From Chitinivibrionales bacterium (GTDB lineage: Bacteria > Fibrobacterota > Chitinivibrionia > Chitinivibrionales > WJKA01): a stretch of 59,050 bases of DNA. The notes below the pieces were generated by a model. That model saw nothing but the letters and a program-made list of their open reading frames with translations. It did not search any database and had not been told where the DNA came from. The stretch is from the NCBI GenBank assembly GCA_014728215.1, contig WJLZ01000170.1, positions 1 to 59,050 of the forward strand. Reading direction: 5' to 3'. The position numbers and the translations under genes are program-made. Within the stretch, counting starts at the first letter, position 1. Each line of letters starts with the position of its first letter. Positions 301 through 19,774 of this stretch are shown here, piece by piece.

Positions 301-310
301 TTGTCGACAA
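301..310. promoter_or_regulatory. Candidate GntR/FadR-type operator palindrome
   Basis: TTGTCGACAA is a perfect 10-bp palindrome lying 20 bp upstream of the best ATG of the FadR-type regulator. FCD-type GntR proteins commonly bind short palindromes of the TTGT..ACAA kind next to their own genes, so autoregulation of this operon is a fair inference. A related half site (TTGTCGA at 19844-19850) lies in the rhamnosidase/aldehyde dehydrogenase intergenic region. Confidence 0.45.
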
Positions 311-330
311 TCGACTATCTTATTGAGCAT

Positions 331-1002
331 ATGCATCTTCCGGACCTCAAAATCGACACCAGCTTATCCGAGGCGGTATACCGGGCGATTCGCAAAGAGA
401 TCGCATCGGGGCGCCTGAAAGCAGGACAGAAAATCACCGAATCGGAGATATCTCTGGCAATGGGGATCAGCCGGGCGCCGGTTCGTGAAGCATTCAAGCG
501 GCTGGCAATGGACCATCTGGTGAATTTGATCCCCCGAAGCGGCTGTTATGTGGCTGATCTGGATGAAAAGGAAATTGAAGAGATCTTTGAGATCCGTAAA
601 CGTCTGGAGTGCATGGCCCTCGAATATGCCTTTGCAAATTTCTCTGCTCACCGGCTCCGGGACCTTCGAAACCGGTTTGAGAGTTGCAAAACGATGGCGA
701 GCAGGGAGGCTGTCGAAAAGGAGATTAAGCTCGACGGATACCTTCACGACCTCATCGCTATAAAATCCGGCTGTGATAATCTCAAGGAGATGCTCAAGGC
801 GCTCTGGTCCCGCATCGAAATAATCCGCCTCCGAGAAGCGGAGCGGGGTTATGTGCCGGTCGATGCCGCCAAAGAGCATATCGCATTGCTCGATTCGCTC
901 ATTGACGGCGATAAAGACAGAGCGGTTGATTTACTGGCCCGGCATATCGAAAATTCGAAAAAAACGGTTATCAGTCATTATTATTGTCAAAAACAGGAAT
1001 AG
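331..1002 (+). CDS. GntR-family transcriptional regulator, FadR/FCD subfamily
   Basis: This is a DNA-binding regulator with an N-terminal winged helix (about residues 8-70; the recognition-helix region contains ISRAPVREAFKRL) and an all-helical C-terminal FCD ligand domain. The FCD domain keeps the acid/histidine pattern that usually holds a metal and an organic acid (D/H in LDGYLHDL, H in AKEHIALLDSL, H in LARHIENS). FCD regulators typically sense sugar acids, lactate or other carboxylates. I chose ATG 331; the in-frame TTG at 301 would place the start inside a palindromic operator. It heads the catabolic operon that follows and is its likely local regulator; the effector is unknown. Confidence 0.88.
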   Translation: MHLPDLKIDTSLSEAVYRAIRKEIASGRLKAGQKITESEISLAMGISRAPVREAFKRLAMDHLVNLIPRSGCYVADLDEKEIEEIFEIRKRLECMALEYAFANFSAHRLRDLRNRFESCKTMASREAVEKEIKLDGYLHDLIAIKSGCDNLKEMLKALWSRIEIIRLREAERGYVPVDAAKEHIALLDSLIDGDKDRAVDLLARHIENSKKTVISHYYCQKQE

Positions 1003-1937: not shown

Positions 1938-2768
1938 ATGAATATTGTTCGAAAGCCTGTTGTGGACCGTTTTAAAGACAAGGTTGCTATCGTTACCGGA
2001 GGATCTTCCGGAATAGGCCGGTCTATTGCAGAAGAATTATGCAAAGAAGGCGCAAAGGTTACGATTACCGGAATAAGCGAGGCCGGAATTACCACCGAAA
2101 AGGAAATGAAAGAACAGGGCTGGGATGTTCTTTTTGTCCGTGGTGATATGGCTGATGATGATTTCCGGGCCGGCATTGTCGAGAAGACACTGGAGAAGTA
2201 TGGAAAGATCAATTATCTCGTGAACAATGCGTTTTCCTTTGTTGCCAAGGGTGAAGACGCTACCGTTGATGATTTCCTTCGAAGCTACCATACCGGGCCG
2301 ATTGCTTATGCACGAATGATCCAGTTGTGTATCGAACCGATGAAAAAGGAAGGCGGCGGCGCAGTGGTCAACATGTCGAGTATTTCGGCCCATATCGCCC
2401 AGGTCAACCGATGGACGTATAATGGTTCCAAAGGCGCGGTGAACCAGATGACCAAGTGTCAGGCACTGGATCTGGCCAGATACAGGATCCGTGTCAACAG
2501 TGTCGATCCCGGCTGGGTCTGGACCCGTGAAGTCGATAAGGCGGCACAACTTGACGGCGGTGGACGGGACAAATGGGAGCCGGTGTGGGGTAGTTACCAT
2601 ATGCTCCGACGGACCGCCGAACCGGTCGAGTGCGCCGGACCAACCCTGTTCCTTCTCAGCGACGACGCTTCCTTTGTAACCGGCGAGCATCTCATGGTCG
2701 ACGCCGGCTATTGCTCGATGGGACCTGAGGGGATCGGTGAAACAACGGTGAATGCCGGAAGCTGGTAG
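1938..2768 (+). CDS. Short-chain dehydrogenase/reductase (SDR), second of two
   Basis: This is a 276-residue SDR preceded by a strong AAAGGAGAGG site. It has the TGGSSGIG cofactor motif, NNAF in place of the common NNAG, the catalytic Ser (NMSSIS) and a YNGSK active-site pair. The C-terminus is longer than in minimal SDRs. It differs enough from the preceding SDR to act at another step, for example sugar to lactone versus keto-deoxy-acid oxidation. The 180-bp gap before it shows no coding signal. Same operon and strand; the substrate is inferred only from neighbours. Confidence 0.85.
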   Translation: MNIVRKPVVDRFKDKVAIVTGGSSGIGRSIAEELCKEGAKVTITGISEAGITTEKEMKEQGWDVLFVRGDMADDDFRAGIVEKTLEKYGKINYLVNNAFSFVAKGEDATVDDFLRSYHTGPIAYARMIQLCIEPMKKEGGGAVVNMSSISAHIAQVNRWTYNGSKGAVNQMTKCQALDLARYRIRVNSVDPGWVWTREVDKAAQLDGGGRDKWEPVWGSYHMLRRTAEPVECAGPTLFLLSDDASFVTGEHLMVDAGYCSMGPEGIGETTVNAGSW

Positions 2769-2925: not shown

Positions 2926-3780
2926 ATGGTAAATTTTCCTGTTGTCGACGGTCATCTGCATGTGTGGGATATCGATCGATGGGTTTATCCCTGGCTCGAT
3001 GATGTTCCTGTTTTGAAGAAGACTCATTTGCTGAAAGATTATAACGAAGCAACAGGGCCGGTGAATGTTGAAAAAATGGTGTTTGTTCAGTGTGAGATCG
3101 AGACCTCAAAGTATAAGGAAGAGGTTGCCTGGATCACCGAACTGGCGCAGAATGAAGATGATCGCATTAAAGGCATTGTATCCTGGTGTCCACTGGAAAA
3201 GGGTGACGGGGCCCGTCCGGAACTCGAAGAACTTGCGCAGAATACGCTTGTTAAAGGTATACGACGGATTATCCAGTTCGAGCCCGACATGGAATTCTGT
3301 CTCAAGCCCGATTTTATCAAAGGAGTCACTATGCTCAAGGAGTATAATCTCACCTTTGATATCTGTATCGATTACCGTCACACAAAAGTTGCAACGCAGT
3401 TTGTGGATAAGTGTCCCGATGTTCCCATGGTACTCGATCATATCGGGAAACCGGGCATCGCCAAAGGACTTCTGGACCCCTGGCGTGGAGAAATCAAGGA
3501 ACTGGCAAAACGACCCAATGTCTGGTGCAAGACCTCATCGCTTGCTACCGAGGCCGATCATGAAAACTGGAGTATCGATGATATCCGTCCTTATGCCGAT
3601 GCTGTTTTCGATGCTTTCGGGATCGAACGCTGCTTTTTCGCCGGCGACTGGCCTGTCTCAGGAATGGCGGCAACCTATCCTCGGTGTGTCGAAACACTGG
3701 AAGAATTGATAAAAGGCGCATCACAGGATGAACTCAAGGCACTGTTCCACGATAATTGCGAGCGCTTTTATAAGGTATAA
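2926..3780 (+). CDS. Amidohydrolase-2 family TIM-barrel hydrolase, sugar-lactonase-like
   Basis: This 284-residue member of the COG3618 type of metal-dependent hydrolases starts with the metal-binding HxH motif (DGHLHVWD, residues ~6-13). It has a central DHIGKPG motif and the C-terminal GDWP motif with the catalytic Asp. Characterised members hydrolyse L-fucono- or L-rhamnono-lactones, and others act on 4-sulfomuconolactone or 2-pyrone-dicarboxylate. Placement after two SDRs favours a lactonase producing an aldonic acid. The start follows CTCCGGAGG. The protein is full length for the family with no visible defect. Confidence 0.8.
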   Translation: MVNFPVVDGHLHVWDIDRWVYPWLDDVPVLKKTHLLKDYNEATGPVNVEKMVFVQCEIETSKYKEEVAWITELAQNEDDRIKGIVSWCPLEKGDGARPELEELAQNTLVKGIRRIIQFEPDMEFCLKPDFIKGVTMLKEYNLTFDICIDYRHTKVATQFVDKCPDVPMVLDHIGKPGIAKGLLDPWRGEIKELAKRPNVWCKTSSLATEADHENWSIDDIRPYADAVFDAFGIERCFFAGDWPVSGMAATYPRCVETLEELIKGASQDELKALFHDNCERFYKV

Positions 3781-3797: not shown

Positions 3798-4769
3798 ATG
3801 TCAAAATATAAAGTTCTCGTCACCGACCACGTGTTTGACCGTTTCGATACGGAACGGGAGGTCCTCGCCCGTGTCGACGCCGAATTGATCGTGCACCAGT
3901 TTCGTACTATCGATGAATTATTGCCTCATGTGGGAGATATCCATGGTCTGCTCAACTGTTATCTCGGGCCGATCGACAATAATGTTTTTGACGCCGCGCC
4001 AAATCTTAAGATTGTCTCCAGGTACGGTATCGGTGTGGATACGATCAATATCACGGATGCTGCGCGGCATGGGGTGATTGTCTCGAACATTCCCGACCAC
4101 GCGATCAATGAAGTTGCCGATCATGCCGTTGCGCTGTTCCTGAATCTTGCACGCAAGATAAGCACGGCCGACCGTCGGGTGAAAAACGGAGTGTGGTCGC
4201 TTTCATACGTAAAACCGCTTCATGCAATAAGAGGTATGACCGCGGGTTTTATCGGGTTCGGCAAAATCGGCAGAGCCGCGGCAGAACGTCTTAAAGCATT
4301 CGGTGTGCGGGTTGTTTTTCATACGCCCACATGGAAAGGCCTGGTTGACGGTTTCTCTCAGGTCGCTTTCGATGAACTTCTTGCTGCAAGTGATGCTGTT
4401 TTTATACAGTGTCCATCAACCGAACAAACATATCATCTGATAAATCGCGCGACTATAGAAAAAATGAAGAAAAAACCGCTGCTGATCAATACGGCACGAG
4501 GTGCGATTGTCGACGCCGACGCCCTGGTGTGGGGACTTTCAACAGGGAACGTGTCGGGAGCTGCATGCGATGTTCTGGAGGATATCGATTCGGTGGTAAC
4601 AACCGACCATCCTCTCAAAAAAGCCGAAAATGTGATATTGACTCCCCACAGCGCATTTTATTCCGAAGAATCGGTGGAAGATTTGAAATATCGCGCGGCT
4701 GAGAATGTCGCGAGGGTCCTGGTAGGAAAGGAACCGTTGTTTAGAGTTGGGGGTAATGGACGAGGATAA
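3798..4769 (+). CDS. D-isomer-specific 2-hydroxyacid dehydrogenase
   Basis: This is a 323-residue NAD-dependent dehydrogenase that interconverts 2-hydroxy and 2-keto acids. The Rossmann motif is GFGKIGRAAAERL (~150-162). The catalytic triad is visible as Arg in INTARG, an acidic residue in DVLEDID and His in LTPHSAF. The family includes phosphoglycerate, glycerate/hydroxypyruvate and lactate dehydrogenases; sequence alone does not pick one. It begins 17 bp after the lactonase-like gene and precedes the LarA-like gene, so a pairing of epimerase and stereospecific dehydrogenase on the same hydroxyacid is attractive but inferred. Confidence 0.85.
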   Translation: MSKYKVLVTDHVFDRFDTEREVLARVDAELIVHQFRTIDELLPHVGDIHGLLNCYLGPIDNNVFDAAPNLKIVSRYGIGVDTINITDAARHGVIVSNIPDHAINEVADHAVALFLNLARKISTADRRVKNGVWSLSYVKPLHAIRGMTAGFIGFGKIGRAAAERLKAFGVRVVFHTPTWKGLVDGFSQVAFDELLAASDAVFIQCPSTEQTYHLINRATIEKMKKKPLLINTARGAIVDADALVWGLSTGNVSGAACDVLEDIDSVVTTDHPLKKAENVILTPHSAFYSEESVEDLKYRAAENVARVLVGKEPLFRVGGNGRG

Positions 4770-4854: not shown

Positions 4855-4920
4855 ACGGGAAACAGTAAGATAACGATTGCATTTTTCCCGCCGTTCCACT
4901 GCTCCATTACCCATTCTTCC
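4855..4920. repeat. Intergenic repeat of the TGGAGTA/TCCATTAC family
   Basis: The 160-bp gap inside the operon contains a GGGGTGACGGG arm and a CCCGCCGTTCCA arm, followed by a CTCCATTACCCATTC run. The same kind of motif appears at 24538-24600, 53403-53456 and 57905-57975. This copy is the most diverged, so membership is tentative. It ends just before the ribosome site of the LarA-like gene. Confidence 0.35.
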
Positions 4921-4930
4921 GGAGTTTTAT

Positions 4931-6205
4931 ATGCTTTACTTTGCTGAAGGTTCACATAATTCGGTTATTTCGCTGGAGAAAGCATCGGGGTATCTCGATT
5001 CGATGCTGGAGTCGTTGGGTGATTTGAGGCGGGTGCTGATTTTGCCGCCCGATTATACGCGGCTTTACTCGTGGGCGGGAGAGCTGACTGTTCTGCTCTA
5101 TGAAAAGCTCAAGGACCGCAGCCATATCGAGATCATGCCTACCCTGGGGACGCATCTTCCCATGACCGATTCCGAATTAAACGCCATGTTCCCCGGGATT
5201 CCCCATGATGTTTTCCGGGCGCACGACTGGCGGAACGATATCATACGGCTGGGTGACGTTCCGGCGGAATTTATCCGTGAGGTTTCCGAGGGGAAGCTAA
5301 AATTCCCGCTGGCTTGTGAGATTAATCGATCCCTTGTCGAGGGGAGATGGGACAGGATTATTTCGGTGGGCCAGCTTGTTCCTCACGAGCTGGCGGGTAT
5401 TGCCAATTTCAGCAAAAATATCTGTATCGGTGCGGGGGGCGAAGATACCATTTCCAAAACCCATTATGTTGCTGCCGTGTATGGACTGGAGCGTCTGATG
5501 GGGCGTGTTGAAAATCCCATGCGGAAAATCCTCCGCTACATGGAACAGCATCATCTCAAAGGACTCCCGATCTCGTATGTCATGACGGTCCGGGGGCAGG
5601 ACAATATGGGCACAGTGGTTACCCGGGGACTCTTTGGCGGTGATGATGAAGAATGCTATCGTATCGGTGCGGAGCTGTGCAGGGATATATCGATCACCTT
5701 CCTGGATAAACCCTTTCAAAAGGTTGTTGTCTACATGGACCCTGAAGAGTTCAAGACCACCTGGGTGGGCAATAAGTCGATATTTCGTACCCGTATGATT
5801 ATCGACGACGGCGGGGAGATCGTCATTATGGCCCCGGGGGTCAAACAGTTCGGCGAAGATACCGCTAATGACCGGTTTATAAGGAAATTCGGGTATCACG
5901 ATACCGATTATATGGTGAACCTGGTGAATACCGTTGGTGAAGCGTCATCCAATATTACCGCGGTGTCCCACATTATTATCAGTTCTCCCGAAAATCGTTT
6001 TACGGTCACCTGGTGTCCGGGGTTTTTGACAAAGGAAGAGGTCGAGTCGGTGAATTTCAACTATGCCGATTGCTCTACAATGATGAAAAGATATGATCCC
6101 GGAAAATTGGCTCCGGGAGTCAATATACTTCCTGATGGTGAAGAGATATTTTTTGTGCCCCGCCCTGCGCTCGGGTTGTGGGCCGCAAAGGACCGATTTA
6201 AATAG
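4931..6205 (+). CDS. LarA/DUF2088-family 2-hydroxyacid racemase or epimerase
   Basis: This is a 424-residue homologue of lactate racemase LarA, which uses a nickel-pincer nucleotide cofactor. It starts at ATG 4931 after TTCCGGAG and matches the usual family length. Family landmarks are present: PDYTR near residue 40, GTHLPM, AHDWRND, then PHELAG...SKNI and a later KTHY. These correspond to the catalytic histidines and to the Lys/His residues that hold the cofactor. Related enzymes racemise or epimerise lactate, malate, hydroxyglutarate and gluconate-type acids. The cofactor genes larB, larC and larE are not in this window. The substrate is likely the hydroxyacid of the neighbouring dehydrogenase. 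Confidence 0.82.
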   Translation: MLYFAEGSHNSVISLEKASGYLDSMLESLGDLRRVLILPPDYTRLYSWAGELTVLLYEKLKDRSHIEIMPTLGTHLPMTDSELNAMFPGIPHDVFRAHDWRNDIIRLGDVPAEFIREVSEGKLKFPLACEINRSLVEGRWDRIISVGQLVPHELAGIANFSKNICIGAGGEDTISKTHYVAAVYGLERLMGRVENPMRKILRYMEQHHLKGLPISYVMTVRGQDNMGTVVTRGLFGGDDEECYRIGAELCRDISITFLDKPFQKVVVYMDPEEFKTTWVGNKSIFRTRMIIDDGGEIVIMAPGVKQFGEDTANDRFIRKFGYHDTDYMVNLVNTVGEASSNITAVSHIIISSPENRFTVTWCPGFLTKEEVESVNFNYADCSTMMKRYDPGKLAPGVNILPDGEEIFFVPRPALGLWAAKDRFK

Positions 6206-6238: not shown

Positions 6239-6697
6239 ATGATTTCTAAAAAGGTCGACCATATTGCGCTAAGTGTTGCCGATATCGACCGGTCGCTTGG
6301 ATTGTACCGTGATATCCTGGGCGCCGAGGTAATCCGCATCCTTGAATGCGACAGCCGATCGCTTCTGGGAAAAGTCGTGGGCATGCCCGGAGCGGTTGCC
6401 CGGATTTGTCATCTGGCATTTGGTGATACCATGATCGAGCTGTTCGAATATTCGAATCCCGAGGGCATACCCATACCGCCCGAACGGAAACAGGCGGATA
6501 AGGGATGGATTCACCTGGGATTGACCTCCACCGATGTACGGGCCGATTATGCAGCGTTACGGGATAAGGGTATCGAATTTATCAGCGAACCGGTGGAATT
6601 CCGTCCTGATGTCTGGATTGTTTATTTCAAGGGCCCCGATGGTGAAGTGTGTGAGTTACGCCAGACGCCGCCGGGTGATTCCGACATTGCTGAATGA
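6239..6697 (+). CDS. VOC-family (glyoxalase/epimerase-like) protein
   Basis: This is a 152-residue vicinal-oxygen-chelate protein with two beta-alpha-beta-beta-beta halves (VDHIALSVADIDRSLGLYRD at the start; IHLGLTSTDV and FKGPDGEVCELRQ in the second half). Metal-ligand candidates are His in DHIAL, Glu in MIELFEY, His in WIHLGL and Glu in VCELRQ. The family includes methylmalonyl-CoA epimerase, glyoxalase I and ring-cleaving dioxygenases. Its position between the LarA-like and E1 genes suggests a role in the same pathway, but no reaction can be assigned. Confidence 0.8.
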   Translation: MISKKVDHIALSVADIDRSLGLYRDILGAEVIRILECDSRSLLGKVVGMPGAVARICHLAFGDTMIELFEYSNPEGIPIPPERKQADKGWIHLGLTSTDVRADYAALRDKGIEFISEPVEFRPDVWIVYFKGPDGEVCELRQTPPGDSDIAE

Positions 6698-6733: not shown

Positions 6734-8905
6734 ATGAAAAAGAAACTGAAACTCGATTTTGACTGGTACGAATGGAAAACAACCGACCAGGAGCTTGCAA
6801 AGCTCGATAGCCGGCTTGCCGGGCGTCTCTTATTTGAGGTATTTATCATCAATGAATTCGAACATGCCCTGTTGCGGCTTAAAAACGATGATTGCGTATG
6901 GGGGCCGGTCCATTCGAGTGTCGGACAGGAGGCCATAGCGGCCGGTGTGACCGCAGCAATAAAACCTTCGGACAAAGCATTCTCAACTCATCGTGCCCAT
7001 CATCATTTCCTCTCAAAGGTTCTTCAGTACGAATTACCGGGAAACTGGGATCCCCGCACTGCAGAGCTTCCGGAGAAAGGGCACGAAGGCGTTCTTCGGA
7101 GTATGGCTGAGATTATGGGGCTTTCCATGGGCTACTGCGGCGGCCGCGGAGGATCGATGCACTTGCGGTATGCCGAATCGGGTTTTTTAGGCTCCAATGC
7201 GATTGTCGGTGGCGGCATACCACTGGCCACCGGTGCTGCGTTTACCGAAAAAATCAACAAGACCGGCAATGTCGTGGTCTGCTATTTTGGTGACGGCGCC
7301 ATTAATCAGGGAGCGTTTCATGAAGCCGCCAATATGGCCGCAATATGGGACCTTCCGGTGATATTTGTCTGCGAAAACAACGAATATGCTGTCGCTACAT
7401 GCAAAGATGAAGCCTGCGCGGTGTGCGATCTTTCGGTAAGAGCGTCCTCCTATGGCATGGATGGCCATATTGTTGACGGCAGCGATCCGGTTGCTGTTTA
7501 CGATGCGGTAGATTATGCGGCAAAAAGTATGCGTACCGGAGCCGGGCCCTGTCTTATCGAAGCGAAATGTTTCCGAAGGTATCATCATGCAGGAGATCAG
7601 CCCGGAAGCGCTTACAACTATCGGGAGCGTGATGAAGAGATGCTTCATTCGGAAAAAGAACCCATGCTGTTGTTCCCCAAAAAGCTTATCGATGCCGGCG
7701 TCCTTGCGACTGAACAGATCGAACGTATACAAAATACTGCATTTTCTGCAGTTGCCCGTGCTGTTGATTCCTTGACGAATGGCGGTGAACCCAGAACCGT
7801 GAAAGCAGAACTTTTGCCGGACCCATCCCGTCTTACCGAAGGAATTCGGAGTACCGGTGATGAGTTTTCGGGGATATCATTTTCCCAAAAGTCCGATTTT
7901 GCGGAATGGGAAAAGATGAAATACAGTGATGCCATTGCATCGGTGACAAGGCGCTGGATCGAAACCGACCCGAACTCCTTTGTCATGGGCGAGGAAGTCG
8001 CCAATTTCGGCGGTGGCGCCTACCAGGCAACGAAGGGGCTTCCTGCAGAATATCCCGATAGAATCAGAAACACTCCCATTTCCGAGGCTGGGTTTGTCGG
8101 TCTCGGTCTGGGCGCGGCCATGACCGGGATGCGTCCGATTGTCGAGATCATGTTTTGCGATTTTTCTCTGGTTGCCGCCGATCAGTTGTTCAATCAGATC
8201 GGGAAAGCCCGCCATATGTACGGCAATACCACCGATATTCCACTCGTCGTCCGAACAAGAGTCTGTACCGGGCTGGGCTACGGCGGGCAGCATTCCATGA
8301 ACGCGGTCGGACTCTATGCGCTCTTTCCCGGATGGCGTATCATATCCCCCGGCAATTCGTTCGATTATATCGGCCTGTTCAATTCGGCCATGCACTCGCT
8401 CGACCCGGTGCTTATCCTCGAACATCAGGCGCTCTATACCAATAAATTTCCTGTTCCCAAAGGCAATGTCGATTATTTCATCCCCCTGGGAAAAGCGAAT
8501 GTGGTATCCGGGGGCGACCAATGCACCATTTTGACCTATGGTAATCTCGTGGGACGCTGTGAGGCTATGCTTTCGAAACTGGCGGATGACGGTATCTCTG
8601 CGGAGCTGATCGATCTTCGGACCCTCGATTACCCGGGAATCGATTATGAGACAATAGGGGAGAGCGTGAAGAAAACCGGGGCGGTGATGATCTGCGAGGA
8701 GGCAAAAAAGAGTCACGCGGTAGGTCCCACGATCGCACATGAAATCACGGAGCGCTATTTTGATTATCTCGACTGTCCCATAGCAAGTATCACCTCGGTT
8801 GATGTACCGCCACCGGTGTCACGGGTCCTCGAACAATCGGCATTGATCAGCGATCAGCATATCTATGAAACAGCAGTCGCTGTGGCCACCAGGAAATGGA
8901 GATAG
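6734..8905 (+). CDS. Fused alpha-beta TPP-dependent 2-oxoacid/acetoin-type dehydrogenase E1
   Basis: This 723-residue protein joins the two E1 subunits of pyruvate, branched-chain or acetoin dehydrogenases. The alpha part (~1-360) carries the thiamine diphosphate signature GDGAINQG ... ENNEYAVAT. The beta part (~390-723) carries the SEAGFVGLG catalytic-Glu region and the transketolase C-terminal domain. A strong AAGGAG site lies upstream. No E2 (lipoyl acyltransferase) or E3 is encoded nearby, so it either borrows these from elsewhere or performs a non-oxidative cleavage. As last gene of the operon it could process the terminal keto or diketo intermediate; that is inference. Confidence 0.85.
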   Translation: MKKKLKLDFDWYEWKTTDQELAKLDSRLAGRLLFEVFIINEFEHALLRLKNDDCVWGPVHSSVGQEAIAAGVTAAIKPSDKAFSTHRAHHHFLSKVLQYELPGNWDPRTAELPEKGHEGVLRSMAEIMGLSMGYCGGRGGSMHLRYAESGFLGSNAIVGGGIPLATGAAFTEKINKTGNVVVCYFGDGAINQGAFHEAANMAAIWDLPVIFVCENNEYAVATCKDEACAVCDLSVRASSYGMDGHIVDGSDPVAVYDAVDYAAKSMRTGAGPCLIEAKCFRRYHHAGDQPGSAYNYRERDEEMLHSEKEPMLLFPKKLIDAGVLATEQIERIQNTAFSAVARAVDSLTNGGEPRTVKAELLPDPSRLTEGIRSTGDEFSGISFSQKSDFAEWEKMKYSDAIASVTRRWIETDPNSFVMGEEVANFGGGAYQATKGLPAEYPDRIRNTPISEAGFVGLGLGAAMTGMRPIVEIMFCDFSLVAADQLFNQIGKARHMYGNTTDIPLVVRTRVCTGLGYGGQHSMNAVGLYALFPGWRIISPGNSFDYIGLFNSAMHSLDPVLILEHQALYTNKFPVPKGNVDYFIPLGKANVVSGGDQCTILTYGNLVGRCEAMLSKLADDGISAELIDLRTLDYPGIDYETIGESVKKTGAVMICEEAKKSHAVGPTIAHEITERYFDYLDCPIASITSVDVPPPVSRVLEQSALISDQHIYETAVAVATRKWR

Positions 8906-10113: not shown

Positions 10114-11280
10114 ATGAATATTGCAGAAAAACCGGAAGTAATGAAACAGCCGTCCTCAGTTGAATTCGGATATAAATCCTGTTCCCATATTCCCCGATAT
10201 CTGGCAGAAAGCACCCGGATCTTTATCGTGTGTGATCCCGCACTGGTGCATTCGGCTGCTAAAATCGGTAAAAGCCTGGCGTCGGAAACAGAGTGCACAA
10301 TCTATTCCCATGTGGAACCGGAACCGAAAATATCCACCTTTGAAAAAATCCTCCTGGAAGCAAAGACCTACCGACCGGATGCTGTTGTGGGTATCGGCGG
10401 CGGCTCCACGATCGATTTGGCCAAGCTCCTTGCGGTTCTCTGCAACAGTGACAAATCCTTTTCTGATATCGTTGGCACCGATAAAATTTACGAGAAACGG
10501 ACAATCCGCCTTATGGCAGTCCCTACGACCTCGGGAACAGGCAGTGAAGTATCTCCTATTGCCATTCTTACCGATTCGGATCAGCAGCTCAAAATCGGTG
10601 CGGTCAGCGATGAGCTTATTCCCGATGTCGCTGTAGTGGATCCGGAATTGATGCTTTCCATGCCCCCGTCGGTGACCGCAGAAACCGGCATGGATGCCAT
10701 GACCCATTGTATCGAGGCCTACACGAACCGGTTCAGCACTTCGAAGACCGATGTTGTTGCTTTGGAAGGGATAACCCTTATCGGAGGAAATTTACTGAAA
10801 GCGTATCGGAACGGCAATGATCTTGCAGCGCGGACCGCAGTGGCCAGAGGCGCGCTGTGCGGCGGCCTGTGCCTGGGCTCGGTCAATACCGCTGCTGTTC
10901 ATGCGCTTGCTTACCCTCTTGGCGGCGAATTCTGTGTTTCCCACGGAAAGGCCAACTCGATGTTGCTTCCTTATATCATGGAATACAATCTTTCCGAGTG
11001 TGTCGAAAAGTACGCAAACATCGGAAAGGTTCTGGGGTGCAAAGAAAAAAATAACCAAAAGCGGGCGCAGCAGGCCATTGTGATGATTCGCAATCTTGCA
11101 CAAGCCTGCGGCATACCAACCGGCCTCAAAGAACTTGGTGTTCCCCAAACAGCACTCGAGCACATGGCCACATCAGCCTTGAAAGTAACGCGGCTCATTC
11201 TCAATAACCCGCGTTCACTTGAATATGATGACGTTCTTGATATTTACAGTAAAGCCTATTGCTGCACCCGGGGCGCCTGA
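10114..11280 (+). CDS. Iron-containing alcohol dehydrogenase
   Basis: This is a 388-residue group III (Fe-ADH) alcohol dehydrogenase that reduces aldehydes or oxidises alcohols with NAD(P). The nucleotide motif is GIGGGSTIDLAK (~98-109), and PTTSGTGSEVSP follows. Metal ligands are the Asp in the GMDAMTH block (with its His) and the His residues in AVHALAYPLGG and VSHGKAN. Lactaldehyde/1,2-propanediol oxidoreductase of rhamnose and fucose metabolism belongs to this family, so this is one candidate role. Its stop codon overlaps the next start by one base (TGATG), tying it translationally to the unknown cassette downstream. Confidence 0.87.
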   Translation: MNIAEKPEVMKQPSSVEFGYKSCSHIPRYLAESTRIFIVCDPALVHSAAKIGKSLASETECTIYSHVEPEPKISTFEKILLEAKTYRPDAVVGIGGGSTIDLAKLLAVLCNSDKSFSDIVGTDKIYEKRTIRLMAVPTTSGTGSEVSPIAILTDSDQQLKIGAVSDELIPDVAVVDPELMLSMPPSVTAETGMDAMTHCIEAYTNRFSTSKTDVVALEGITLIGGNLLKAYRNGNDLAARTAVARGALCGGLCLGSVNTAAVHALAYPLGGEFCVSHGKANSMLLPYIMEYNLSECVEKYANIGKVLGCKEKNNQKRAQQAIVMIRNLAQACGIPTGLKELGVPQTALEHMATSALKVTRLILNNPRSLEYDDVLDIYSKAYCCTRGA

Positions 11281-11654
11281 TGAGACTTCTTCACACAAAA
11301 CTACCCGAATTCAAACATAAAATTACACAGGCGGCACTCGAACAGGGCAAAAAATGCACTATCAGCGGGCTCGAAAATCTTCGGTGCGGTAAAGTGCAAT
11401 CCCTTCGGACAGGAAGAATCGAATCCGCCATTGAGGAGATCGCCCGGGAATCGGCAACCGGTAATGTTGAAGTGATCGTTATGCCCCGTGTGCCGGAAAC
11501 AATGCACACGGTAATTGTAAAGGGAGTCGATAAAAAAGGCGCCGATACACGGGCAATTATGGAAGTTGTCAATATTATTCATCCCACCGAAGAATACGAG
11601 CTTCGCAATTGCACCTCGGTCGATGATCGCCGGCCGCCTCTGGGAAAGCACTGA
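11280..11654 (+). CDS. Unrecognised small protein A of five-gene cassette
   Basis: This is a 124-residue protein starting at ATG 11280, coupled to the alcohol dehydrogenase stop. I do not recognise a family. It has a helical N-terminus, a predicted alpha/beta core with the segments VEVIVMPRVPETMHTVIVKG and IMEVVNIIHPTEE, and two to three cysteines that are not arranged as a metal site. There is no signal peptide, so it is probably cytosolic. It may be a small subunit of a complex with the next protein, judging from the 9-bp spacing and the size ratio; this is inference. Confidence 0.6.
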   Translation: MRLLHTKLPEFKHKITQAALEQGKKCTISGLENLRCGKVQSLRTGRIESAIEEIARESATGNVEVIVMPRVPETMHTVIVKGVDKKGADTRAIMEVVNIIHPTEEYELRNCTSVDDRRPPLGKH

Positions 11655-11663
11655 ATAAGCATC

Positions 11664-12695
11664 ATGGCCCGATTGACCTACAGGTTTATTCCCGCCGGAA
11701 AAAAGACCGGCCAGCTGGTGCCCCTCGGCATCGCGTTGGTCGATATCAGAACCATTACCTCATGTGGATGCTCCGTTGAAGATGCGATTCGTGGGGTTGC
11801 CTGCGATGTAAATGCTCCGGTAGCGATTAACATTTTCGATATGGACGCCGTGACGACCACCAGTGACGGGATCGTTATTGATGGCGCTATTGTCTGCATG
11901 GGTGCGGGGGATAACGGTAATGTCAATGAAGAATTCGGTATCCTTTCCATGGCCCGGGTCGATGTTACCGATGATCTTATCAAAGAAGAGCCTCACCTTG
12001 CGCAAGTAAAACGGTATTATCCAGGCAAACCGCTTTACAGAGGGCCCGATCCCGCCAAAAAACTGATCCCCGTGCATAATGTGGTTATGACCGGACGGGC
12101 CGCAAATAACAATTCGGCCACCGAAATGATGGATATCGTTACCATGGAAGAAATCCTGTTTCCCATACTGGGTCAGATTCAGATCATGAAAGACAAACCG
12201 GTGGTGGTGGGTATGTCCGGTGAGTATATTTCGGTTGGCGTCGGTATGACTGTGGCTGAAGTCTACGGAAGAATCTTTCCTACCCGTCAGTTCAGAGCAG
12301 GAGATACTGCCCACGCAGCGGAGCGGTATGCTAAAAATCTGAAGAGTCATATTCCCTGCATTGTTGCACCCAAGCGGGAATTGGCACGCTCCATTATACG
12401 GGCCTTTGAGTGTGGAATGGTCCCCGGCAGAGAGCTTGGATGTGCACCTGCCTGCATTGCAGTCGCCCAGGCATATCACCATGATATCGATATCGACAAT
12501 ATAACCGAAAAGGCAGAAAAAGAGCTTGCGAGTATCGGTATGGATATCCGGGGTTTGTCGCGATGGGAAAAACCGTTGCCAAAGGAACAGATAATCGGGC
12601 AGGCCGACCGGATAATACCCGGTGTGGTTAATCCGGTGGAAATCGAGGCCCATGAAATTGCAGAAACACGCTCTGTTGATATCGTTTCCGGTTGA
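11664..12695 (+). CDS. Unrecognised protein B of five-gene cassette (343 aa)
   Basis: This is the largest member of the cassette. No known family was recognised. Notable features are a Cys-rich turn TSCGCSVEDAIRG (~34-46), a glycine/asparagine-rich segment MGAGDNGNVNEEFG, an invariant-looking TGRAANNNSATEMMD block, GMSGEYISVGVGMT and a late ELGCAPACIAVAQAYHHD block with two Cys and two His. The paired Cys and His could bind a metal or cluster. It has no signal or membrane segment. Position 9 bp after protein A suggests one functional unit. Catalytic role is unknown. Confidence 0.6.
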   Translation: MARLTYRFIPAGKKTGQLVPLGIALVDIRTITSCGCSVEDAIRGVACDVNAPVAINIFDMDAVTTTSDGIVIDGAIVCMGAGDNGNVNEEFGILSMARVDVTDDLIKEEPHLAQVKRYYPGKPLYRGPDPAKKLIPVHNVVMTGRAANNNSATEMMDIVTMEEILFPILGQIQIMKDKPVVVGMSGEYISVGVGMTVAEVYGRIFPTRQFRAGDTAHAAERYAKNLKSHIPCIVAPKRELARSIIRAFECGMVPGRELGCAPACIAVAQAYHHDIDIDNITEKAEKELASIGMDIRGLSRWEKPLPKEQIIGQADRIIPGVVNPVEIEAHEIAETRSVDIVSG

Positions 12696-12739
12696 ATCGC
12701 TGCTGCTTAACTTTTGTAAGTATCCATTCTGTTTAAAAA

Positions 12740-13126
12740 ATGAAATCAAAAATAATCTGTTACGCCGATAAATGTATGCTGAAAATTGAGGGGCTTTCGG
12801 TAAAGGGGCTCAGACCTGTGGAGCTCGAAAAAAGCCTCTCTCAAAAGCTCAATACGGTTGTCCGGGTAATCGGTGTGACCGGCGATAGGCTGGATATGGA
12901 TATTTACGGCATGAAAGAGAGTGATATCGAGCGCAACAGCGAAGGAATTGTCGTTGCTGTTGCTGCTGCCGAAGGTATTACTATAGCCGATGTAAAGAAA
13001 ATAACGTTGAACGACGGGTGTATCAATATAAATATCAACGAAGTTGCGCCTGTTAACGTACCGGGATGTGCCGGTCAGCGATGGAGATCCTGTGATACGA
13101 AAAGCCGCGATCATTCCGACCGGTGA
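12740..13126 (+). CDS. Unrecognised small protein C of five-gene cassette
   Basis: This is a 128-residue cytosolic protein with alternating strands and helices (KIEGLSVKGLRPVELEKSL near the start, then VVRVIGVTGDRLDMDIYG and EGIVVAVAAAEGITIADV). It is small, alpha/beta, and similar in size to protein A, but no clear sequence relation is visible by eye. The end of the frame overlaps the start of protein D by about 35 bp, and the last ~12 residues are composition-poor, so the functional part may end near residue 115. Function is unknown. Confidence 0.55.
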   Translation: MKSKIICYADKCMLKIEGLSVKGLRPVELEKSLSQKLNTVVRVIGVTGDRLDMDIYGMKESDIERNSEGIVVAVAAAEGITIADVKKITLNDGCINININEVAPVNVPGCAGQRWRSCDTKSRDHSDR

Positions 13127-13622
13127 TGAGATTGTCGAAGGCGTGGTGGTCGACACGAACAGCCCTGCAATCCGGGATTTGATTCTCCATACTTTTCCTG
13201 ATTGTGCAATTGCACTCTGTTCTCCATGCTCCGATATCGCAGAGGTTATTGCTGCTGCAATAGAGCGGCAGATCGAAGAACGCTGCGATTGTATTGTTCT
13301 GATCGGCGGGTGTGGTGAAGGCCATTGCAGGTGCCCGGGATTGGGCATCGATGTCACTCCCCGGGCAATAGAGAACGTGCTGAAAGAATATTGGACCCGG
13401 GACATCTATGGTTCCAACGGCCACCGGTGGGCCCGGATTATGGCTGGTCGAGCAGGGAACAGTCTGGTGGTGAATGTCCCGGGACCTTATGTTGAAGCCT
13501 GCGCTGCAGCAGAGGCGCTGCTTGCTGTTTTGAAACAGGGAGATTGGGAGTGCCGGTCTATCGCTGAGGCATGCGCCGAAGCGGTTATCACACAGTATCC
13601 GCCAGGGAGTATATCGTCATGA
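13092..13622 (+). CDS. MoCF/CinA-like molybdopterin-binding-fold protein D of cassette
   Basis: This is a 176-residue protein. GTG 13092 with an upstream GGAG is the best start; a TTG at 13044 is possible but deep inside gene C. The N-terminus IPTGDEIVEGVVVDTNSP matches the opening strand-loop of the molybdopterin-binding MoCF domain, as in MoeA, MogA and CinA. A following LIGGCGEGHCRCPG is a glycine-rich loop with three Cys, which is unusual for the family. It could bind molybdopterin or a nucleotide, or be a re-purposed fold. Its stop overlaps the start of protein E (ATGA), giving translational coupling. Confidence 0.65.
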   Translation: MIRKAAIIPTGDEIVEGVVVDTNSPAIRDLILHTFPDCAIALCSPCSDIAEVIAAAIERQIEERCDCIVLIGGCGEGHCRCPGLGIDVTPRAIENVLKEYWTRDIYGSNGHRWARIMAGRAGNSLVVNVPGPYVEACAAAEALLAVLKQGDWECRSIAEACAEAVITQYPPGSISS

Positions 13623-14212
13623 ATCCGCTTTTCGGATTGCTCATTTCAGGACATACTCTCGATAGCTATCCCTTTGCTGCGGGTCTTCTGGGACCTGTTT
13701 CTCATCAAAGAGAACTCAACGAAATTTCAGAGATTTTTAACGACATCGAGATTGGTGATAGTGTCGATCAGCTTGAAATCGATATGAAATGTGCTCAGTT
13801 TGTCAGGGAAAAGTGTTCTTCAGCGGTGTACGCCTGTGCATTGAGTGTCCATATACCCGGTACAGTGCATTCATGCGGGGGCATAATCGGCAGTCCGTGT
13901 GCCCGGCCATCATCTGCCTCGCTGCGGCCATGGAGTGAAAATATCGGTCATGGGCTCAGTCTTGCCGCTGTTCCCGGACAGGGAGGTGTTGTTGTTTGCG
14001 GAAACCCCCTGTTTGCTGAAGCATGTATTCATTTTGCTGGAGCCGAAAAAGGTGGAGCGGAATTTATCGACAGGGTTCTTGGATATGCAGGAGAAAAAAA
14101 GATAATCCATGCTCTTGCGGTGCATGACGGCACCGGTTGTGGCATGCGCGGTGGCGTGGGACTGCTGTGCGATGGGCGCAAAGAAAGGCTGCTTATCCCT
14201 GGTTTAACCTGA
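13619..14212 (+). CDS. Unrecognised Cys-rich protein E of five-gene cassette
   Basis: This 197-residue cytosolic protein starts at ATG 13619 inside the ATGA overlap, with AGGGAG upstream. No family was recognised. Visible motifs are ISGHTLDSYPFAAGLLGPVS at the start, VHIPGTVHSCGGIIGSPCARPSS in the middle, and HDGTGCGMRGGVGLLCDG near the end. Cysteines and glycines cluster in two loops, which suggests a metal- or cofactor-binding site. It closes the cassette; the next gene follows after 57 bp with its own ribosome site and is of a different type. Confidence 0.6.
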   Translation: MNPLFGLLISGHTLDSYPFAAGLLGPVSHQRELNEISEIFNDIEIGDSVDQLEIDMKCAQFVREKCSSAVYACALSVHIPGTVHSCGGIIGSPCARPSSASLRPWSENIGHGLSLAAVPGQGGVVVCGNPLFAEACIHFAGAEKGGAEFIDRVLGYAGEKKIIHALAVHDGTGCGMRGGVGLLCDGRKERLLIPGLT

Positions 14213-16591: not shown

Positions 16592-19500
16592 TTATAGTTT
16601 TACAGAAAATGCATGTTCCCCCGACCCTACTTTGGCAATTTTGTTTTCTTCCACCCCCGGCAACACGACCTTAGCCCAAACATTCCCCGGCACGGTCACA
16701 TCCAGATCAAACCGGCCATCTTTTATTTCCCAGCTCACTGCAAGTTCTCCATAAATGGACTCATACCTTCCCTTAGCCCATGTCAGTCCACCGCCGGGGC
16801 GGGGATGAATGATGACCGATTTATATCCCGGCGTATCAGGATCGGGATTGATGCCGAGTATCACCCGGTATATCCATTCTCCGATTGCACCGAAAGCGAA
16901 ATGGTTGAATGAATTCATCTCGTGTGGATTGATCGTGCCGTCGGCAAAGATACCGTCCCACCGTTCCCAGATCGTGGTGGCGCCCTGATCGATCATGTGG
17001 CCCCAGGAGGGGATGTCACGATTCATGAGGAGTTTGTAGGCCAGATCGGTCTGGTTTGCTTTTGCCAGTTCGATCATCATGCGGTGGGTCGGCTGTAGGC
17101 CGGTTGAGGGATGAAAATTATAGTATTGGACCCGCTCGACAAGGTGGGAAATAATTGTTGAGCGCATCTCGTGGGGGACAAGATCGAAATGAAGCGCGAG
17201 GGTGTAGACCGTCTGGTTGTGTCCTTCAATTTTACCTTCATTGTCGAGAAACTCACGGCAAAATGCGGCTTTGATATCAGTGGCAAGGCGGGAATATGTC
17301 CCGGCGTCTTCATCGTGGCCGACGGCCTGAGCCATCTTAGCCAGTATTTCGGCGCCATGCGCAAAGAAAGCGGTTGCAAATACCTGTTTGGGAGTACCGA
17401 GCTTTTGCCAGGGATAGTTTTCCGGTTTATAGGTTTGACTGCTCAGCCAGTCACCATAGTCGACCCCGCGACAGTTCCGCCAGATCAGATCGGGATTATG
17501 GGACCGGATAAACTCGATCCATTTTTTTGATGACTCATAATGCTCCCGGATGATCCGCCGGTCGCCATAATTTTCATATACCCGCCAGGGGGTAATGTGG
17601 CTGCCGTCAGCCCATCCCGGAGCGCCGGAGAATCGTTTGTATGAGATAAGATGATTAGGGGAAAAATCGGAAAAACGACCATCATCGGTTTGAGCATCGC
17701 GGCAATCTCCCGCCCACTTGGTGTAAAACCGCGCCATATTCATGTTGAAACAGGCGGTTTGGGAGAACACCGATGCATCACCGCCCCATCCCAGGCGCTC
17801 ATCCCGTTGCGGACAGTCGGTGGGAGTGCTGTGCATGTTATCTCGCTGAGTCCATTGAATCGCAGTCATCAGTTTGTTAAGCAGCGGTTCGGAACATTCG
17901 AATGTTCCTGTTTCGGGCGCCGCCGAATGAAAGGCGCATCCGGTAATGAAATCAGGACCCGGTTTTGATGACAACCCTGTTATTTCCACATAGCGGAAAC
18001 CATGATAGGTAAAATGAGGCTGGAGTGTTTCGGGGCCCTTGCCGCCGAGTATAAAGGTATCGGTTTGTGCTGCCGTACGAAGGTTGGCCATGGCTACCAT
18101 GCCATTCTTGTCAACAACTTCCGCATGGCGAAGGGTGATTGTGTCTCCCGGTTTACCGGAAACGTTTATCCGGCACCATCCCACCATATTCTGTCCCATG
18201 TCGGCTACGTACACGCCGGATTTGGGTTCGGTGATTGAAATGGGGGAGAGTTCCCGGGTAATTTTTATCGGCTCGTTGAACTGACTGACAAGAGGGACGG
18301 TAATGGAGTCGTCGATTTCAGCGTTGTTCCATTGGGGGGTACCGGCTGCCTGCTTGTTATCCTTCGCGTTTTTTGTTCCTTGTTCTCTATAAGGACCGGG
18401 ATGAACGGGTGACTGCTGATGGAAATCAATTTCCTGTGGCGCATCGTACACCTCGCCGTCAAAAATGCACGAGCTGCGGATGGGGCCGTCGAGAGTGCCC
18501 TGCCATGAGCTGTCCGTGTGAACAACTCCCCGGGTGCCGTCGCTGTATTCGATCTCCAGTTGAGCCATAAATTGAGGGCGATTGCCATAGAACCGTCTCC
18601 CGGGAGTCAGCCCGAGCCTTCCGGCATACCATCCTTCGCCACAGGTTGCGACAATCAGATTTTCTTTCCGACGGAGCAGTGGGGTAATATCGTATGTCTG
18701 ATATTGCACCCTTTTTCCATAATCGGTCCACTCGGGCGCCAGGATATGCTCTCCCACACGGGTTCCGTTGATATGCATTTCGTAGACCCCCAGGCAGGTT
18801 GTATAGAGGCGGGCCGCAGCAAGTTGCTTTTCGATCGGGAATGTCTTTTTGAGGACTGTTGCGGGCGCGGGCGAACCGGGGTTACCTTTTTTAGACTCGG
18901 TAACACCGTTGGTGCAATATAAGGGCGACCACCCCTTACATGAGCAGGAATCGGATGCCGTTACTTTCTTACCCAAGGCAATGTTTTCATCGCCGCCATA
19001 GATTTCGACCTCGGTCAGAGCAAATCCATGAATATTGGCTTCCCACCGCCCAAGGAGTTTCGCCCTGATTCGGATATACCGCGCCGTACAGGGGTCAAAA
19101 TGATATTCCTTCGGAGTTTTTCCGGGGTTGGGAATGTCCTCTGAGGTCTTATCTACAATGGTCGTGTGTTCGGTGAAATTTTCTGTGTTGGATATGTCAA
19201 TTTTCAGTTTGAGGGGGAAAAGAAACCCCTCCTTGCCCAACCATTCATAGCATGTTGCAGGGAAGAGCCGGATTGAGCTGAATTGACGGGAGGTACCGAG
19301 ATCGATAGTTATCCATTTTTCTTCTTCGGGATCGATAGTAAATTCGGAGCAGTATCCGTAGCAGGGCGCTTCATAGCCATCGATTGGGTAGGGGAGTCCG
19401 ATCCAGTGCGCCGACCAGTCATCACGGTCAAGAAGGCCCATCTCCCAGGTTGCGGGTTCGCTGAAATCTGATGGTGTTCCATTGGCGTCCCAGAATCTCA

Positions 19501-19774
19501 CTTTCCAGAAACAACGCATTCGGGAATGGAGCGGTGCGCCGCTGTATTCGATATGGACCGAATTGTCCGATTCTACTTTGCCGCTGTCCCAGAGATCGCC
19601 GGTGTCCTGCTCGAGTAAATTTGCTGTGGAAGCAACGAGGATTTGATAGGCACATTGAAAATTTCCCTTTGGTTCCAGAGGAATACGCCAACTAAGTCGT
19701 GGGGTACAGGTTTCGATTCCAAGGGGATTTTCCGCATATTCACTTCTGAGATCAAAAGGTCTTGTTTCTGACAT
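16592..19774 (-). CDS. GH78 alpha-L-rhamnosidase
   Basis: This is a 1060-residue glycoside hydrolase that removes terminal alpha-L-rhamnose. N-terminal beta-sandwich domains are followed, around residues 125-275, by an inserted discoidin/F5-8-like carbohydrate-binding region (ITIDLGTSRQFSSIRLFP). The central catalytic (alpha/alpha)6 barrel holds DCPQRDERLGWGGD (acidic catalytic cluster) and TTIWERWDG (second catalytic Glu), and a C-terminal beta domain follows. There is no signal peptide, so it most likely works in the cytosol on imported oligosaccharides. A ribosome site AGGGAAAG precedes ATG 19774. It is divergent from the aldehyde dehydrogenase and near a sugar-acid operon, pointing to rhamnose use. 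Confidence 0.93.
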   Translation of the reverse strand: MSETRPFDLRSEYAENPLGIETCTPRLSWRIPLEPKGNFQCAYQILVASTANLLEQDTGDLWDSGKVESDNSVHIEYSGAPLHSRMRCFWKVRFWDANGTPSDFSEPATWEMGLLDRDDWSAHWIGLPYPIDGYEAPCYGYCSEFTIDPEEEKWITIDLGTSRQFSSIRLFPATCYEWLGKEGFLFPLKLKIDISNTENFTEHTTIVDKTSEDIPNPGKTPKEYHFDPCTARYIRIRAKLLGRWEANIHGFALTEVEIYGGDENIALGKKVTASDSCSCKGWSPLYCTNGVTESKKGNPGSPAPATVLKKTFPIEKQLAAARLYTTCLGVYEMHINGTRVGEHILAPEWTDYGKRVQYQTYDITPLLRRKENLIVATCGEGWYAGRLGLTPGRRFYGNRPQFMAQLEIEYSDGTRGVVHTDSSWQGTLDGPIRSSCIFDGEVYDAPQEIDFHQQSPVHPGPYREQGTKNAKDNKQAAGTPQWNNAEIDDSITVPLVSQFNEPIKITRELSPISITEPKSGVYVADMGQNMVGWCRINVSGKPGDTITLRHAEVVDKNGMVAMANLRTAAQTDTFILGGKGPETLQPHFTYHGFRYVEITGLSSKPGPDFITGCAFHSAAPETGTFECSEPLLNKLMTAIQWTQRDNMHSTPTDCPQRDERLGWGGDASVFSQTACFNMNMARFYTKWAGDCRDAQTDDGRFSDFSPNHLISYKRFSGAPGWADGSHITPWRVYENYGDRRIIREHYESSKKWIEFIRSHNPDLIWRNCRGVDYGDWLSSQTYKPENYPWQKLGTPKQVFATAFFAHGAEILAKMAQAVGHDEDAGTYSRLATDIKAAFCREFLDNEGKIEGHNQTVYTLALHFDLVPHEMRSTIISHLVERVQYYNFHPSTGLQPTHRMMIELAKANQTDLAYKLLMNRDIPSWGHMIDQGATTIWERWDGIFADGTINPHEMNSFNHFAFGAIGEWIYRVILGINPDPDTPGYKSVIIHPRPGGGLTWAKGRYESIYGELAVSWEIKDGRFDLDVTVPGNVWAKVVLPGVEENKIAKVGSGEHAFSVKL

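Follow-up and report, generated by a model that had tools for sequence, protein, structure and literature searches.

Genes at the locus

The window (the whole 59,050-nucleotide stretch of contig WJLZ01000170.1 analyzed here, from the Chitinivibrionales bacterium assembly GCA_014728215.1) carries near its start a cluster of eight genes that includes a homologue of lactate racemase LarA (LarAH). We use 18b for the three-member clade that contains this protein and 18a for the other 53 aligned sequences of LarAH group 18.

301..1002, + strand: GntR/FCD transcriptional regulator; in 3/3 clusters, truncated at the contig end in locus L037
1044..1757, + strand: short-chain dehydrogenase 1 (SDR1); in 3/3 clusters, start taken from homologues (the mechanical ORF opens at 984)
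1938..2768, + strand: short-chain dehydrogenase 2 (SDR2); in 3/3 clusters, 78-87% identical
2926..3780, + strand: amidohydrolase_2, lactonase-like; best PDB match 4dlf, NF052480 144.7 bits (below the cut-off of 400)
3798..4769, + strand: D-isomer-specific 2-hydroxyacid dehydrogenase (phosphoglycerate dehydrogenase/glyoxylate reductase-like); PF02826 E 1.6e-49, PF00389 E 3.2e-23
4931..6205, + strand: LarAH group 18 (18b), putative nickel-pincer-nucleotide (NPN)-dependent aldonic-acid C2-epimerase; assigned from Lar_N, NF052594, residues and tree
6239..6697, + strand: VOC (glyoxalase-fold) protein; 33 bases past the LarAH gene, in 3/3 clusters
6734..8905, + strand: fused alpha-beta E1 of a thiamine-diphosphate 2-oxoacid dehydrogenase; the other two 18b genomes have copies at 76% and 65% identity

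The LarAH gene is an intact reading frame of 424 amino acids with a single terminal stop; its ATG at 4931 is the start position of its two closest homologues, and the mechanical ORF extends further upstream, to a TTG at 4877. The first-pass annotation had placed a LarA-type enzyme here, adjoining the hydroxyacid dehydrogenase, and this assignment held: the protein scored above the cut-offs of Pfam Lar_N (43.1 bits; cut-off 23.3) and of the NCBIfam model NF052594, "nickel-dependent putative hexonate epimerase" (561.8 bits, E 7.3e-169; cut-off 500), so the match is not due to chance. The sole PDB sequence match at E ≤0.001 was 4nar (E 1.2e-34), the D-gluconate 2-epimerase GntE2 (LarAH20) of Thermotoga maritima (PMC7583248). 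The NF052594 score likewise bears out the annotation's suggestion of a substrate larger than lactate, but that suggestion had a precedent, since Desguin et al. 2020 hypothesized that LarAH group 18 epimerizes hexonate (PMC7583248). The gene most likely encodes a putative nickel-cofactor enzyme that would invert a single carbon center in a six-carbon sugar acid. The consulted portions of PMC7583248 and PMC11770544 give no measured activity for any group-18 protein. An AlphaFold2 model of the window protein, built from a four-row alignment, had a mean pLDDT of 56 (below 50 over 199 of 424 residues, many of them in the C-terminal half) and was judged unfit for a fold search.

Catalytic, cofactor and pocket residues

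Alignment of the window protein with 4nar and 83 other LarA homologues placed LarA residues D72, R75, H108, H174, K184, H200 and K298 at D41, R44, H75, H152, K162, H178 and K282. All seven catalytic or NPN positions are therefore retained, in agreement with the earlier claim that LarA-type His and Lys residues are kept, and the motifs on which that claim was based (GTHLPM, AHDWRND, PHELAG...SKNI and KTHY) all occur in the sequence as given. The same annotation had read GIANFSKN, which stands where a canonical FSGG block was expected, as a divergence of the window protein; instead, it reflects the norm of group 18. FSGG is found in 0/53 sequences of 18a and 0/3 of 18b (0/56 aligned group-18 sequences), in 9/25 more distant LarA homologues and in 3/4 of the rows that we labeled GntE-like, namely 4nar plus three from the phylum. 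The pattern AN[YF]xK occurs in 39/53 sequences of 18a and 3/3 of 18b (42/56 aligned).

The pocket is unlike that of lactate racemases. LarA F175, F176, Y294, V297, W358 and T359 correspond to E153, L154, W278, N281, S346 and H347 of the window protein, with E153/L154 standing at the F,F positions of the lactate racemase pocket (PMC7583248). GntE enzymes carry E, V, A and H at F175, F176, W358 and T359 (PMC11770544), and the window pocket is of this GntE type, with L154 and S346 as changes. Among the features described for groups 18-20 (loop EV/S, helix-11 W and helix-14 A/V; PMC7583248), the window protein has the loop E and the helix-11 W, and L replaces the loop V/S. The helix-14 column of GntE2 A351 holds S346 in the window protein (A in L034), preceded by V345. 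Helix 14 is mapped differently in the two papers: PMC7583248 pairs LarA W358 with GntE2 N348, which aligns with window N341 (N in 47/53 sequences of 18a and 3/3 of 18b). We used the mapping of PMC11770544 and read it as A351-H352 of GntE2 equaling S346-H347, an assignment of our own.

These substitutions bear on whether the window enzyme could be a racemase of lactate or another short-chain 2-hydroxyacid. The protein does match the lactate racemase model NF033504, although weakly, scoring 28.7 bits where the cut-off is 460; its E153/L154 replaces F175/F176, and its place in the tree is with group 18 and GntE, which together leave such a role with hardly any probability.

Phylogeny and residues of clade 18b

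NF052594 was matched over its cut-off in 11/167 genomes of the phylum (17/167 at E 0.001), in 6/26 genomes from the class of the genome holding L012 (titled Bacillota) and in 56/393 genomes taken from the order to which the L014 genome (titled Bacteroidales) belongs, only part of which 56 were aligned, so that further 18b members could be among the rest. The window genome has two group-18 copies, the window gene and a copy on contig C215 (669 bits, PHEV loop):

763-2034 of locus L002 (contig C215), - strand: second group-18 LarAH of the window genome; adjoins gnd and a HAD-like gene; the second gene upstream encodes a PdxB-like dehydrogenase

In an 85-row tree, group 18 (56 rows) stood apart from 25 other LarA homologues with SH-aLRT support of 100, though this was a quick search in which long branches meet. 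The window protein lay on the group-18/GntE side, away from the other LarA homologues, rather than clustering with lactate racemases. In a thinned tree of 37 rows, from which those 25 distant rows and 23 others had been dropped, the window protein, the protein of genome G036 (75% identical; on contig L013, titled Chitinivibrionales) and one of the two copies in genome G037 (63%) formed a clade with support of 100/100; this clade, 18b, may lie at the base of group 18.

Several residues distinguish 18b. Positions 350-351 are His-Gly in 53/53 sequences of 18a and Ile-Ser in 3/3 of 18b (I350-S351 in the window protein); the three GntE-like proteins of the phylum also have the His350 equivalent, and 4nar has no coverage there. 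L154 (V in 51/53 sequences of 18a) and F285 (Y in 53/53) are among the other residues fixed in 18b, and position 346 has changed from A to S in two of its three members. Since these residues adjoin the specificity positions named in the papers, the 18b side branch probably has a changed substrate. What the analysis adds, beside the 18a neighborhoods described below, is the 18b clade with its gene cluster and the loss of the His-Gly pair; the family and its suggested function are already in print. No description of the clade was found in the literature searched, including the consulted portions of PMC7583248, PMC11770544, PMC12611868 and PMC6978723.

Cofactor synthesis genes

The first-pass annotation had noted that larB, larC and larE were absent, which is correct for the window's contig but not for the genome. 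Whole-genome searches of the assembly (5.0 Mb in 229 contigs, 96% complete) located the three genes, intact, on three other contigs: larB on C3, larC on C4 and larE on C84. All exceeded their NCBIfam cut-offs, with 267.1 bits for LarB (cut-off 175), 209.2 for LarC (cut-off 90; LarC2 domain 108.2, cut-off 50) and 319.6 for LarE (cut-off 150). A TGA inside the larB match is where that gene terminates, after 251 open codons. The annotation had named a genome lacking larBCE as grounds for abandoning its reading; this is not what the searches returned.

The scattered larBCE genes, together with the loss of the His-Gly pair, might indicate that the window gene is a relic whose product has lost its use of NPN. 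We consider this very improbable: the gene is intact in three genomes at 60-75% identity, every NPN and catalytic residue is kept, and larBCE are themselves intact.

Gene neighborhoods of 18a

Besides the window, 46 loci were collected, of which 40 were counted as 18a. Those left out were L037 and L038 (window clade), L136 and L138 (24-26% identical), and L046 and L137, for which the gene caller picked no LarAH even though L046 has one by tblastn. L015, whose gene is truncated by a contig end, entered one neighborhood comparison and no other. Within 10 kb of the 18a LarAH, the Gnd group (6-phosphogluconate dehydrogenase) was present at 27/40 loci, UxaC at 18/40, UxaE at 14/40, UxuA at 5/40, a PfkB-type kinase at 15/40 and an FGGY kinase at 5/40, in a set chosen largely by score rather than at random (L123 and L130 are from one genome) and with each group named from one scanned representative. 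An SDR was found at 28/40 and a PdxB-like dehydrogenase at 21/40, loose counts because the single-linkage clusters behind them are broad and include the window's own SDRs and dehydrogenase. The scanned SDR neighbor exceeded a D-mannonate oxidoreductase model (372 bits; cut-off 281).

This neighborhood resembles a route from glucuronate or galacturonate through mannonate to gluconate or 6-phosphogluconate and on to ribulose 5-phosphate. The presence of uxaC, uxaE, kinase genes and gnd beside the 18a genes thus suggests that 18a is a D-mannonate/D-gluconate 2-epimerase, or acts in the same way on the 6-phosphates. Mannonate kinase and 6-phosphomannonate 2-epimerase activities are described for Lactobacillus suebicus, with their genes still to be identified, in PMC6978723; the proposal of gntE in T. 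maritima is credited there to Rodionova et al. 2012. A search for literature joining lactate racemase, glucuronate, mannonate and 6-phosphogluconate dehydrogenase found no such paper; the hexuronate link of group 18 may already stand in Table S1 of PMC7583248, which gives neighbors by group.

A protein of approximately 296 amino acids lies directly upstream of the 18a gene at 8/40 loci (L039, L040, L041, L043, L114, L123, L129 and L142). The one representative scanned matched HAD_2 weakly (E 0.0041, below cut-off), and only 1/8 of these loci also has a PfkB kinase. This HAD-like protein may stand in for the kinase in 18a loci.

The 18b gene cluster

The genes for GntR, SDR1, SDR2, the amidohydrolase, LarAH and VOC are shared by the window, G036 and G037 in one order and on one strand, and in the data searched only these three genomes carry the cluster. 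Matches to the amidohydrolase at E ≤1e-30 were likewise confined to them (3/40 genomes of the order), as were E1 copies of at least 65% identity (3/40), with three further genomes at 35-39%. The G037 copy of E1 is on contig C69, directly after a fragment of an aldehyde:ferredoxin oxidoreductase (AFOR) gene whose remaining part is at the edge of contig C15. In both sister clusters, an AFOR (AFOR_N and AFOR_C) follows VOC (L037 5065-6813, - strand; L038 1-1578, - strand), and in G036 it sits between VOC and E1; no AFOR match at E 0.001 was found across the whole genome of the window.

The first-pass annotation had paired the LarAH with the D-specific dehydrogenase. This pairing is only partly supported, since the dehydrogenase gene is in the clusters of the window and G036 but missing from the third: in G037, the amidohydrolase and LarAH genes are separated by 110 gene-free bases, and the genome's closest counterpart of the dehydrogenase lies on another contig and has 38% identity. 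The sugar-acid setting that the annotation described is seen in the enzymes around the LarAH gene, which include the SDRs and the lactonase-like amidohydrolase. The best PDB match of the latter is 4dlf (E 9e-28), which we take to be an L-fucono-1,5-lactonase, and its score against the corresponding NCBIfam model, NF052480, was 144.7 bits, below the cut-off of 400. Among the matches listed (for the SDRs, the best 25 of 232 and the best 25 of 229), no NCBIfam model was exceeded by SDR1, SDR2, the amidohydrolase, the dehydrogenase, VOC or E1. PDB searches of the cluster neighbors returned broad families, and none at E 1e-6 for VOC. The names "lactonase" and "aldose dehydrogenase" are thus putative labels drawn from superfamily resemblance.

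Amidohydrolase_2 and VOC families also serve in the catabolism of ring compounds, and the substrate could conceivably be a non-aldonate hydroxy acid, such as the product of ring opening by the amidohydrolase, with a cyclic polyol or another ring compound as its starting material. Consistent with this, the amidohydrolase weakly matches 4-sulfomuconolactone hydrolase (33.4 bits) and a chain annotated as 2-pyrone-4,6-dicarboxylic acid hydrolase (E 1.1e-5). However, its best NCBIfam match is L-fucono-1,5-lactonase, albeit below cut-off, and the LarAH has a pocket of the sugar-acid (GntE) type, which makes a non-aldonate substrate unlikely.

The family matches of the eight cluster genes revealed no transporter, kinase, dehydratase or aldolase that would fix the sugar, which counts against the aldonate reading set out below. 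No 18b-locus gene falls in the uxaC, gnd, uxuA or kinase groups, part of the flanking genes having been scanned against family libraries. The latter result matters for a competing explanation, that the window enzyme is a second D-mannonate/D-gluconate 2-epimerase performing the ordinary group-18 reaction from a different operon. Such a role would fit the NF052594 score, the common catalytic residues together with E153, W278 and N281, and the 18a neighbors that suggest mannonate/gluconate as substrate. Yet an ordinary group-18 copy is already encoded next to gnd in this genome (L002/L039), the window clade is separate (100/100) and lacks the H350-G351 pair invariant in 53/53 sequences, and the uxaC, kinase and gnd groups are without a member in the 18b cluster; we regard this explanation as doubtful, though the least improbable of the alternatives.

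Farther along the window, an alpha-L-rhamnosidase-like protein is encoded 7.7 kb beyond E1 (16592-19774, - strand; 874.5 bits, below the model cut-off of 1720). It has no tblastn relative in the 46 neighborhood loci, including L037 and L038, which hold only 13 and 15 kb. L-rhamnose was rejected as a substrate suggested by this gene because of the intervening genes and the lack of relatives in those loci. L-rhamnonate is already (2R) and L-fuconate is (2S), which would need epimerizing for a D-specific dehydrogenase; this decides nothing on the substrate. An aldehyde dehydrogenase at 19994-21448 (+ strand) is nearest to alpha-ketoglutaric semialdehyde/2,5-dioxovalerate dehydrogenases, below cut-off. 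The genes of 11259-14212 are tightly packed or overlapping; one has a molybdopterin-binding (MoCF_biosynth) domain, and four have no Pfam or NCBIfam match at E 0.001.

A putative pathway for 18b

Family membership, the catalytic and cofactor residues, the cofactor-synthesis genes and a cluster conserved in three genomes are established by sequence, and from them we infer the substrate, the order of steps and all activities of the 18b pathway. We favor, with a probability of roughly 0.55, the reading that the window protein uses NPN to epimerize C2 of a six-carbon aldonic or deoxy-aldonic acid that carries no phosphate. The combination of SDRs, a lactonase-like enzyme and a C2-epimerase makes an oxidative, non-phosphorylative route the simplest account. 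An SDR would oxidize an aldose to its lactone, and the amidohydrolase would open the lactone to the aldonate. The LarAH, supplied with NPN through the unlinked larB, larC and larE, would then move the C2 hydride onto the cofactor and return it to the opposite face, with H75 and H152 as acid/base. Where the D-2-hydroxyacid dehydrogenase is present, it would oxidize the (2R) product, and the resulting 2-keto acid would pass to E1. The presence of an E1 enzyme for 2-keto acids in 3/3 18b genomes suggests that a 2-keto acid arises somewhere in the route.

Alternatively, the epimerase, dehydrogenase, E1 and AFOR might act in sequence in an alpha-oxidation that shortens sugar acids. The NPN enzyme would set C2 of an aldonate to R, the dehydrogenase would form the 2-keto acid, E1 would decarboxylate this to an aldose one carbon shorter and AFOR would yield the next aldonate; if so, the epimerase would let one dehydrogenase take acids of either C2 configuration. 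Only G036 among the three 18b genomes has all four genes in one cluster, which counts against chain-shortening, and we consider it highly improbable. The epimerization of an unphosphorylated aldonate or deoxy-aldonate remains our preferred reading.

Group 18 is a widespread nickel-pincer epimerase branch, and the neighborhoods give its main part a concrete candidate substrate, D-mannonate/D-gluconate or their 6-phosphates. Because the 18b cluster differs and its pocket is altered, the substrate of this small branch is also testable, and both predictions can be assayed directly.

Comparison with known systems

The window protein shares with LarAH group 18 (NF052594) the PHE, W.GNK and AN[YF]xK motifs, the catalytic and NPN residues and a score over the cut-off. 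Within the group it is distinct: it is 38-51% identical to the 53 aligned 18a sequences, forms its own clade and has different gene neighbors. GntE2 (4nar) agrees with the window protein at the catalytic and NPN positions, in the E that follows the second catalytic His and in the helix-11 W, but identity is 27% over the aligned part, and GntE2 has FSGG where the window protein has GIANFSK. Lactate racemase LarA (NF033504) shares the superfamily and catalytic residues, whereas its pocket F,F is E,L in the window protein. The LarA branch described in PMC12611868, as far as its consulted portions go, has Asn as the second catalytic residue in place of His; the window protein keeps H152, so the Asn case does not apply. 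Finally, the mannonate kinase/6-phosphomannonate 2-epimerase route of L. suebicus, as outlined in the consulted part of PMC6978723, contrasts with the window cluster, where no kinase or gnd was found, whereas its chemistry would fit the 18a neighbors (uxaC, uxaE, kinase and gnd), which makes 18a a possible home for the 6-phosphomannonate 2-epimerase.
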